A DNA stretch of 64,000 nucleotides, taken from positions 1 to 64,000 of the forward strand of contig NZ_JACRUK010000013.1 of assembly GCF_014305155.1 (NCBI RefSeq), written 5' to 3'. The position numbers and the translations under genes are program-made. The notes beneath the pieces were generated by a model. It was not told the origin of the DNA and searched no databases. It worked only from the letters and a program-made list of their open reading frames with translations. Source of the DNA: Flavobacterium muglaense (GTDB taxonomy: Bacteria; Bacteroidota; Bacteroidia; Flavobacteriales; Flavobacteriaceae). Positions 8,819 to 49,822 of the stretch are shown here, one piece after another; position 1 is the first letter of the stretch, and each line of letters starts with the position of its first letter.

Positions 8819-8946
8819 GCCCTAGCCCAGATAGCAGTGGAAATCCTTTTACTTTTTTCTTAAAAAGTAAAAGATTACTTCACTTATACTATTTATTTCG
8901 GTGTTCAGTGAATTACATTTGCAACGGATAGCTGAAAATAGCTCCT
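8819..8946 (+). repeat. Dispersed hairpin element, copy A (with internal insertion)
   Basis: Conserved head GATAGCAGTGGAAATCC (8830-8846) leads into a perfect 12-bp stem, CTTTTACTTTTT (8846-8857) / AAAAAGTAAAAG (8862-8873), and the conserved tail GCAACGGATAGC ends at 8932. Compared with copies at 34402, 45653 and 49557, about 40 bp is inserted between stem and tail; it contains its own TTCACT/AGTGAA inverted repeat. The rest of the 8565-9032 gap holds AT-rich sequence without a gene. Confidence 0.7.
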
Positions 8947-34401: not shown

Positions 34402-34480
34402 GGAGCTGTTCTCGCTATCCGTTACAATCTTATATGCCAAACACTGGCATATAAGGATTTTCACTTCTATCAAGGCTAGC
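34402..34480 (-). repeat. Dispersed hairpin element, copy B
   Basis: Read on the minus strand it has the conserved head GATAGAAGTGAAAATCC, then an 11-bp perfect stem (plus-strand coordinates 34429-34439 CTTATATGCCA and 34445-34455 TGGCATATAAG, 5-nt loop), then ATTGTAACGGATAGC and GAGCTCC-like tail sequence. The stem sequence differs completely from the other copies while the flanks are kept. It lies in the 240-bp gap upstream of fumC. Confidence 0.75.
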
Positions 34481-34535
34481 ATTTAGTACACAGTAAAACA
34501 TTTCTCTTTTCAATAACCTCGAAAAAAAACATCAA

Positions 34536-35921
34536 ATGAAATTCAGAATCGAAAAAGATACCATGGGCGAAGTGCAAGTTCCCGCCGATAAATATTGGGG
34601 TGCACAAACAGAACGTTCCAGAAATAATTTTAAAATAGGCCCTTCAGCCTCTATGCCCAAAGAAATTATCTATGGTTTTGCTTATTTAAAAAAAGCGGCC
34701 GCTTATACCAATTGTGATCTTGGTACACTTACTACAGCCAAACGAGATGCTATAGCTGCCGTTTGTGACGAAATATTGGACGGAAAACTAGACGATCAGT
34801 TTCCGTTAGTAATCTGGCAAACAGGTTCCGGCACACAAAGCAATATGAACGTAAATGAGGTAATTGCTCATAGAGCTCAACTGCTAAAAGGATTTACTAT
34901 TGGCGAAAGCGAACCCTTTATTAAAGCCAATGACGATGTCAATAAATCACAATCATCCAATGATACTTTTCCTACAGCTATGCATATTGCAGCTTACAAA
35001 CTAGTTGTTGAACATACCATTCCTGCCATTGAAAAACTTAGAGACACATTAGATACTAAAGCCATTCAATTTAAAAATGTGGTAAAAATAGGCCGTACAC
35101 ATCTTATGGACGCAACGCCACTTACGCTTGGTCAAGAAATTTCCGGTTATGTAGCACAGCTCAATTATGGTGTAAAGGCGCTAAAAAACACTTTAGCCCA
35201 TTTGTCTGAAATTGCTTTGGGAGGGACAGCAGTAGGCACAGGATTAAACACACCTGTAGGATATGACATAAAAGTTGCTCAGTATATCGCTGCGTTTACA
35301 GGCCATCCATTTGTAACCGCCGAAAATAAATTTGAAGCATTGGCCGCACACGACGCTATTGTTGAATCGCACGGTGCCTTGAAACAACTAGCCGTTTCAT
35401 TAAATAAAATTGCCAATGACATCAGGATGTTAGCCTCTGGTCCACGATCTGGAATTGGTGAGCTACTACTGCCCGAAAATGAACCTGGCTCATCCATCAT
35501 GCCCGGAAAAGTAAACCCTACTCAATGCGAAGCATTAACTATGGTTTGCGCTCAAGTAATAGGCAATGATGTTGCGATCACCGTGGGCGGCATGCAAGGA
35601 CAATACGAGCTCAATGTTTTTAAACCACTTATGGCGGCTAACTTTTTACAATCGGCACGCTTACTCGCAGACGCATGCTCATCATTTGATACCCATTGCG
35701 CTCAAGGCATTGAACCCAATTACAAACGCATCACAGAACTAGTTGACAATTCACTAATGCTAGTCACTGCTTTAAATACAAAAATAGGCTACTACAAAGC
35801 CGCCGAAATTGCTCAAACAGCACATAAAAACGGTACTAGTTTAAAAGAAGAAGCCATCCGACTTGGCTACGTGACTGCAACCAACTTTGATGCTTGGGTT
35901 AAACCCGAAGACATGGTGTAA
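34536..35921 (+). CDS. fumC: Class II fumarate hydratase
   Basis: The 461-residue protein hydrates fumarate to L-malate in the TCA cycle. It opens [25 protein letters not shown] and has [24 protein letters not shown]-like and [16 protein letters not shown] (catalytic His). The superfamily signature [15 protein letters not shown] carries the mobile-loop Ser. Length and motifs are those of fumarase C rather than aspartase. It is monocistronic; the element at 34402-34480 lies upstream. Confidence 0.95.
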
Positions 35922-38743: not shown

Positions 38744-39137
38744 GGGGTCGACTGGTTTTGACAGCAAGTCGAATTGAAAAGTAAGCAGGCCGAGCATTGA
38801 GACCTTGCTCGTAAATATAAGATCTTACAATTTTACACGGCGAAAATAACTACGCTTTAGCTGCATAATCCGAATTATAGTACGATTACGCCACGTTCCT
38901 ATCAGATAGGAAAGCTGGATTCTCCTTGAAAGCCTTGGTTTGTGGCGTTCTATTCAGGAGAACCGTAAAAATAGACCTAGATTTCCATAAGCTTCGGGTG
39001 GATTTCAAAATTAAGAAGATAAGTAATAAGTGGCTGTTTCTGGCCTAGCTTGTTATCGAAAATCTAATCAGGAAATAAGCCCGTAGAAAGCCTTTTAGTT
39101 GCTTGTTTGGACCCGGGTTCGATTCCCGGCGACTCCA
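38744..39137 (+). ncRNA. ssrA: tmRNA
   Basis: The 5' end GGGGTCGACTGGTTTTGACA and the 3' end GGGTTCGATTCCCGGCGACTCCA pair as a tRNA-like acceptor (7 bp, with one G-U) and T-arm. The resume frame begins at 38839 with GGC and reads G-E-N-N-Y-A-L-A-A-stop (TAA at 38866-38868), the expected tag type for flavobacteria. The 3' CCA is not encoded: the sequence after the discriminator A is CAA. tmRNA rescues stalled ribosomes with SmpB. A strong terminator follows immediately. The genes downstream look like an accessory island. Confidence 0.97.
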
Positions 39138-39138
39138 C

Positions 39139-39176
39139 AAAAAAGCCTGTAAACATCTTGTTTACAGGCTTTTTTA
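39139..39176 (+). terminator. Terminator of ssrA
   Basis: AAAAAGCCTGTAAAC-ATCTT-GTTTACAGGCTTTTTT, a strong stem with T-run right after the tmRNA. Confidence 0.93.
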
Positions 39177-45635: not shown

Positions 45636-45652
45636 GGCAGGGATTTTTTTGC

Positions 45653-45745
45653 GTTAGGGATAGAAGTGGAAATCCTTTTTTGCCCTTTTTTGGGCAAAAA
45701 AGATTGAAACGGATAGCCCGACCCGATAGGGAAACGCCCAAATCA
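45653..45745 (+). repeat. Dispersed hairpin element, copy C
   Basis: Head GTTAGGGATAGAAGTGGAAATCC, an 11-bp perfect stem CTTTTTTGCCC (45675-45685) / GGGCAAAAAAG (45692-45702), then ATTGAAACGGATAGCCCGAC and a tail ACCCGATAGGGAAACGCCCA shared almost base for base with copy D at 49557-49645. It sits inside the hsdM-hsdS gap, antisense to the operon. Confidence 0.8.
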
Positions 45746-49556: not shown

Positions 49557-49645
49557 TATTTGGGCGTGTCCCTACGGGTCGGGCTTTCCGTTACAATCTT
49601 TTTGGTGGCGGAAAAAGCCACAAAAAAGGATTTACACTTCAATCC
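49557..49645 (-). repeat. Dispersed hairpin element, copy D
   Basis: Read on the minus strand: head GTGAGGGATTGAAGTGTAAATCC, stem (plus-strand 49598-49609 and 49617-49628, one mismatch), ATTGTAACGGAAAGCCCGAC and the tail ACCCGTAGGGACACGCCCA shared with copy C. It occupies most of the 313-bp gap between moaCB and moaE inside the Moco operon. The rest of the gap shows no gene. Confidence 0.78.
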
Positions 49646-49822
49646 CTCACGCAAAACCACGTTATTGAATCAAATTCTAGTTCATCTATTGTTACTAAAA
49701 ACCAAAGATTTAAACCTCTTTAACAGTCCTTTAGACAAAATATTAGGAATCAATCGTAATCTATCTAAAACCCTTTTGTTTACTCTAACCTCTTGTTTCT
49801 TAACTCTTGTTTCTTTCCTCTC

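Follow-up and report, generated by a model that had tools for sequence, protein, structure and literature searches.

The Flavo-1 family is already known. Its row in the table of Weinberg 2010 reads y, n, n, Bacteroidetes (PMC2864571), and in the part of the F. psychrophilum transcriptome study that deals with it, Flavo-1 matches were indistinctly sense or antisense and many lay outside transcribed regions (PMC9723704). Rfam classes the family, under RF01705, as an sRNA gene. The letters y, n and n presumably stand under the column heads RNA, cis-regulatory and switch, and both this row and the F. psychrophilum transcriptome are compatible with reading Flavo-1 as a DNA repeat. In the open-licence literature that we searched, no description of Flavo-1 as a DNA repeat was found. 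The distinction matters because Rfam-based pipelines label more than 100 "sRNA genes" in a genome such as the one studied here, which is misleading if they are DNA repeats, and because covariation is widely taken as proof of functional RNA, a point that Flavo-1 puts to the test.

Among DNA elements, the closest described systems are REP/BIME repeats with their transposase TnpA-REP (RAYT), which are, like Flavo-1, short imperfect palindromes, intergenic, high in copy number, patchy in occurrence and often near stop codons. Flavo-1 differs from them in having no conserved GT[AG]G foot, no RAYT flanking above background, and an apical stem that varies freely. By eye, GT[AG]G was not conserved at the hairpin foot of the 98 F. 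muglaense copies described below, whose ends are of the YTAGCCC or GCGTGAGG type. According to the passages on subclass 2.6 in PMC6006769, RAYTs of this subclass in Bacteroidetes are flanked by atypical structures, and their REPs likewise lack GT[AG]G. With MITEs, Flavo-1 shares dispersal and, in one of its two structural types, a short outer inverted repeat. Integron attC sites put structure over sequence, carry unpaired bases and vary in length, and Flavo-1 resembles them in these three respects, as an analogy only. We read Flavo-1 as a REP-like interspersed DNA hairpin repeat rather than a small-RNA gene, with a probability of roughly 0.6; DNA is favoured over RNA because of the copy number, the free orientation, the patchy presence, the near-identical cores in unrelated flanks and one inverted apex.

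The DNA analysed was a 64,000-nt stretch of Flavobacterium muglaense (contig NZ_JACRUK010000013.1, positions 1 to 64,000), hereafter the window. A first-pass annotation of its letters had placed there, in both orientations, four copies of a hairpin element that was possibly Flavo-1, and all four copies were confirmed, two on each strand (Table 1). The scan with Rfam 15 cmscan (RF01705, gathering cut-off 42 bits) upheld the name for three of the four; the fourth, at 8820-8942, scored 38.8 bits and stayed under the cut-off, and a 44-nt insert (8876-8919) splits its 3' arm. With the outer stem included, the two Y-shaped copies extend over 45651-45739 and 49562-49652. All four copies are intergenic between genes read on one strand, and small ORFs overlap the window copies at 45651 and 49579. 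Chance similarity is ruled out by the Rfam scores, at least 117 copies in the genome, shuffle controls (0/500) and 78 Watson-Crick pairs among 79 matches free at one pair. The window also holds an ordinary tmRNA gene (38744-39140, tag GENNYALAA).

Table 1 Flavo-1 copies and their parts in the window
Feature	Position	Strand	Details
Flavo-1 copy, A-type, with module nested in 3' arm	8820..8946	+	38.8 bits over 8820-8942
Nested module TACTTCACTT..GGTGTTCAGTGAA	8876..8919	+	splits the Flavo-1 3' arm at GAT^TG
Flavo-1 copy, A-type ends	34402..34481	-	Rfam match 34404-34481, 73.0 bits; model R1 77.3 bits
Flavo-1 copy, B-type (Y-shaped)	45646..45739	+	Rfam match 45646-45727, 72.8 bits; single-strand fold
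Parts of the 45646..45739 copy	outer stem 45651-45655/45733-45737		outer stem, hairpin, small second arm, CC, AAA
Flavo-1 copy, B-type (Y-shaped)	49562..49657	-	Rfam match 49573-49657, 63.1 bits; outer stem GCGTG/CACGC; fold

Flavo-1 copies are imperfect palindromes about 80-110 nt long. The base hairpin consists of three helices with two symmetric internal loops between them (GNA opposite GNA), followed by a bulged C and then by an apical stem whose sequence is freely variable between copies. The RF01705 model has the same base hairpin and loops; the outer stem, the second arm and the 3' end GCnCC-WAA lie outside it, and the outer stem of the B-type copies is thus missed by Rfam's model. A regular expression found 59 clear copies in F. 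muglaense loci, 58 of them of usable length, and 42 were aligned after 16 of the 58 had been excluded by hand (near-duplicates, several with unusual apices). Model R1, built from the 42-copy alignment, gave 100 matches, 98 of them distinct, in 91 F. muglaense sources, and a script classed 71 of these 98 copies as A-type and 22 as B-type, leaving 5 unsorted. The A-type ends are YTAGCCC ... GGGAAATAGCTCC, the 3' module being longer in some copies, and the B-type pattern is GCGTGAGG ... CCCGACCCG ... CACGCCC. In B-type copies an outer stem and a second arm give the element a Y shape, which folding of the lone strand reproduced for the two B-type copies of the window. The 5 bp of the outer stem were exactly complementary in 21 of the 22 B-type copies, both window copies included, with seven 5-mers besides GCGTG, in a count that takes the best place within a 56-base stretch and would succeed by chance in about 5% per copy. 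For 95 copies a regular expression assigned a right end, in some cases misplaced; after this end, 92 copies have T or A at the first position, 64 have A at the second and 77 have A at the third.

The F. muglaense genome (4.15 Mb, 117 contigs) holds at least 117 Flavo-1 matches, 109 of them over the cut-off; the figure is a lower bound, as 150 of 1,096 candidates were scored. Within the genus, Flavo-1 was found in 58 of 61 genomes including F. muglaense, with none in three genomes, one copy in three and at least 64 in several, and across the phylum there were matches in 44 of 296 genomes, scored up to a ceiling of 15. In named genome contigs, 77 loci matched a strict 49-nt pattern (70 titled Flavobacterium, some from one genome), and they fell into 43 clusters by shared flank. 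Carriage by phage was rejected, one strict pattern giving 0 exact matches in viral contigs, and so was carriage by plasmids, for which the hits, 4 Paraclostridium records with 79-81% identity, covered 60-61% of an A/T-rich query and were attributed to chance.

The orientation of the 98 F. muglaense copies relative to genes follows no rule: both neighbours were antisense for 37, both sense for 24, divergent for 17 and convergent for 15, and 5 copies lay at a locus end. By crude ORF calling, 12 of the 98 lay within an ORF (73-241 aa) and 5 extended 4-61 bp into a neighbour. The median distance was 53.5 bp to stop codons (94 sides) and 94 bp to start codons (97 sides). The flank beyond the 3' end is rich in A (at least three A in five bases in 70 of 95 copies, compared with 213 of 980 controls), and a separate terminator-like hairpin was present within 90 bp of 7 (right) and 8 (left) of the 95 copies, compared with 20 of 980 random positions, mostly coding. 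A role as intrinsic terminator (GC hairpin plus T run) was not supported, given the A-rich flank and the many copies with no terminator-like hairpin nearby. A gene carried beside Flavo-1 was also rejected, since no gene family recurred beside the F. muglaense copies at more than 4 loci. In genome G562 there was no replication-strand (lagging) bias under all origin and terminus placements tried (24/38, a value as high in 169 of 200 shuffles).

These placements bear on the idea that Flavo-1 is a cis-acting mRNA leader or 3'-end element (regulator, stabiliser or terminator) selected near particular genes. The shorter distance to stop codons, the terminator-like hairpins above the random level and an antisense copy kept upstream of fumC, beside a sequence like a -7 box, all fit it; we nevertheless consider it improbable for the family, because there is no orientation rule, for most copies the neighbouring 90 bp contain no terminator-like hairpin, and no gene family adjoins the F. 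muglaense copies at more than 4 loci.

The fumC case was followed across the genus. The A-type copy at 34402..34481 lies upstream of, and antisense to, a fumC-like ORF (34536-35921, +), and relatives have an element in the same place and orientation. With a 2.2-kb query, matches were obtained in 390 of 398 genus genomes, and in the best 30 loci, F. muglaense included, the element was upstream of fumC in 28 and antisense in 28/28. This first set is slightly biased because the query contained the element, so 20 more genomes were added, picked by hand as those whose printed match began only at the gene. Among these, 13 had a match and 12 of the 13 had it in the leader, all antisense; of the 20, by eye, one (L288) was a short piece and one (L299) had another neighbour. 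Combined, 40 of 50 loci carry an antisense copy upstream of fumC. The apical stem at this site differs wholesale between groups with pairing kept, and leaders with no element look shorter. TAnnTTTG is the consensus of the Bacteroidetes -7 box, and since a TAnnTTTG-like box adjoins the element, the fumC copy is probably part of the fumC leader. Its retention indicates that some copies may be useful, and the copy upstream of fumC makes the case of co-option directly testable. In three genomes a palindrome like TCCCGAA-n-TTCGGGA was nested in the fumC-upstream Flavo-1 (at the apex in L105 and L118, at the head in L124).

The first-pass annotation had also described a stem that varies and yet stays paired, and the alignment bore this out. 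In a 21-pair hand-drawn structure of the 42 copies, 98.1% of 877 cells pair, a figure that is flattered because 16 copies were left out by hand, and 211 cells are changed on both sides; either value was reached in 0 of 500 shuffles, and only 42-54% of cells pair when the structure is slid by 1-3 columns. The covariation score of the 42 copies was 0.627, compared with 0.139 for shuffles. An exact-pattern scan with everything fixed except one apical pair gave 79 matches, related loci included, with A-T 43, G-C 31, C-G 4, C-T 1 and no G-T, so 78 of the 79 are Watson-Crick. In one locus cluster of 18 records the pair was G-C in 13 and A-T in 5 with no intermediate. A tree of the 16 records with enough flank required at least 2 changes between G-C and A-T, and 53 of 500 shuffles were as low, which means that the clustering was not beyond chance.

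To count pairs with no alignment, the arms were paired from the outside in for 185 rows (98 from F. muglaense, 28 from fumC and 59 from other loci), which are distinct within each set, count the F. muglaense fumC copy in two sets and include two weak partial matches. The apical arms had 1,874 Watson-Crick, 14 G-T, 2 A-C and 20 other pairs in a strict count, and 1,903 Watson-Crick, 48 G-U and 27 mismatches in a loose one. The tmRNA of the same window, with 91 scored pairs, had 63 Watson-Crick, 14 G-U and 14 mismatches. The G-U share of the apical pairs is therefore 0.7% (strict) to 2.4% (loose) compared with 15% in tmRNA, the single RNA control. The ratio of G-U to other departures was 14:22 (strict) or 48:27 (loose) in Flavo-1 and 14:14 in tmRNA; G-U is thus no scarcer than mismatches, so its scarcity marks a very clean stem and, as weak evidence, only hints at DNA. 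Strong selection on RNA could also make any non-Watson-Crick pair scarce. The base helices had G-T 41 and A-C 16 in the same 185 rows. A better argument than the overall scarcity is a contrast between helices: one helix of two base pairs tolerates G-T (pair 17/69 in 9 of 98 F. muglaense copies), whereas G-U is infrequent in the long apical stem, the place where an RNA would accommodate it most easily. Over apical and base pairs together, G-T exceeded A-C by 55 to 18, which seems to point to folding of one of the two strands; pure double-strand correction would predict equality. This asymmetry suggests that the strand of the Rfam model folds, if only at times, and either single-stranded DNA or RNA would be compatible with that.

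A rival reading is a genuine structured RNA (an sRNA or a trans-acting element) whose compensatory changes reflect selection on the transcript. Such an RNA would account for the strong covariation in the 42 copies, the conserved internal loops, the G-T over A-C asymmetry and a G-U to mismatch ratio like that of tmRNA, and the position kept at fumC in 40 of 50 loci speaks for function there. We still hold it to be unlikely, in view of more than 100 freely oriented copies in F. muglaense, the low share of G-U in the apical pairs compared with tmRNA, the F. psychrophilum matches in sense, antisense and untranscribed positions reported in that part of the transcriptome study (PMC9723704), and an apex inversion between two genomes.

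That inversion came from a comparison of genomes G277 and G314, which have 37 and 39 Flavo-1 copies. Fifteen copies were fetched from each, and 9 pairs could be made by flank with 80-93% identity, two of the 9 by one side only. One pair only, L180/L175, shows an apex inversion between the arms: once one of the two 25-nt apices is reversed they agree at 22 of 25 positions, with a score of 19 compared with 2 in the same sense. L161 and L165 are told apart by 1-bp insertions that match between the two arms, L171 and L174 by a T-A versus A-T swap. Among the 12 unpaired copies, L182 stands opposite an empty but rearranged site and L181 opposite an ambiguous one, L158 was badly cut, five (L155, L163, L169, L176 and L178) face a listed copy, and two (L156 and L167) face altered ones. 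The sole clean empty site, L166/L238, with flanks 78% alike, shows no target duplication; a survey of flanks for such duplications had been proposed in the first-pass annotation. This one site does not fit a classical MITE, and Flavo-1 differs from MITEs also in its folding as a Y. In seven of the fetched copies (L155, L161, L165, L171, L174, L175 and L180) the apex carries a GAGCGnAGTCGA-like or related palindrome, which is perhaps another dispersed repeat.

Within F. muglaense, the 15 most alike core pairs (92-99%) have unrelated flanks in 14, diverging at the TAGCC foot. L053 and L062 have 20 bp of left flank in common beyond the usual end and then diverge rightward. The cores of L001 and L003 are 99% alike and carry different 3' modules, with L024 likewise involved, so cores may be exchanged between copies besides moving.

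Taken as observed, Flavo-1 copies are intergenic in any orientation, have like cores in unrelated flanks, number from 0 to more than 100 per genome, and are kept at some sites across species. The first-pass annotation had left the choice between a structured RNA and REP/MITE-like mobile DNA; that pair of options is supported, and the evidence between the two leans to DNA. On the DNA-repeat reading, the arms are probably kept complementary at the DNA level. The conserved loops would be the putative recognition site of a protein that acts on the folded DNA and that may once have spread Flavo-1. The apical complementarity would be due mainly to arm-to-arm copying by template switching at the palindrome, to an occasional apex inversion and to core exchange between copies, and less to selection acting on a transcript. 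A few old copies, for example the one upstream of fumC, may have been kept as they are now part of a gene's leader.

One candidate for the spreading protein is a RAYT or other Y1 (HUH) transposase, with Flavo-1 as its REP. The REP-like habit fits this, as do the atypical structures that flank Bacteroidetes subclass 2.6 RAYTs in the passages cited above (PMC6006769). Genomes with a 2.6-like protein, a label given by our own reading of the motifs of that study, have more Flavo-1 (mean 46.3 compared with 31.6, p 0.009; kinship ignored, and per-genome counts at 64 being minimum values). The loci themselves speak against it. Of 30 loci of the 2.6-like protein, a Flavo-1 match at E ≤ 0.01 is present in 4, and in two of these it is short and weak; about 2.7 would be expected at the density of the F. 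muglaense genome, and by eye the flanks of 17 printed RAYT loci mostly have other palindromes. The F. muglaense genome has four Y1 transposase matches; Flavo-1 was found at none of their loci (L031-L034), and the flanks printed for two of these and part of a third have other palindromes. The 1.2-like protein is not associated with Flavo-1 number (39.0 compared with 38.3, p 0.91, kinship ignored), and neither protein is present in at least 15 of the genomes that have 30 or more copies. Membership of the REP/RAYT system is therefore improbable as well, and the 2.6-like and 1.2-like Y1 proteins, the two classes tested as mobiliser, fit poorly; no mobiliser was found. At four Flavobacterium RAYT genes (L192, L193, L195 and L197) the flanks carry GATAGCGCGGATTTGCAATCCGTGCCC-like palindromes, which seem to form a REP family of their own.

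The insert in the window copy at 8820 is one instance of a small module nested in Flavo-1. The exact pattern TACTTCACTT-N-GGTGTTCAGTGAA gave 6 matches in 5 of 150 genomes and 0 for the reversed-pattern control, and a looser scan of 1.03 Mb of DNA added one more instance (L087). Each of the 7 distinct instances reads as lying at GAT^T of a Flavo-1; the window instance is in the 3' arm and the other six are in the 5' arm. The host was shown by model R1 in 4 (L087, L307, L309 and L311) and by eye in 3 (L306, L308 and L310). GATTG is common, with 166 occurrences in the window, so the target of the module seems to be Flavo-1 and not the pentamer.

The DNA-repeat reading can be carried further, to a tentative proposal that we put below even odds: the Rfam RNA family would be a self-correcting DNA palindrome, its covariation coming from arm copying, apex inversion and exchange, and it would host a second module that enters only at GAT^TG. 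If this is true, strong covariation alone is no proof of RNA, since a self-correcting palindrome would give covariation too, and symmetric indels, apex inversions and missing intermediates would be a way to separate a DNA palindrome from an RNA. One loose match of the module (L209) lies outside Flavo-1 and looks like chance. The module is itself a hairpin of some 44-50 nt, and its 3' end, read by eye, shows partial complementarity to the Flavo-1 sequence after it.
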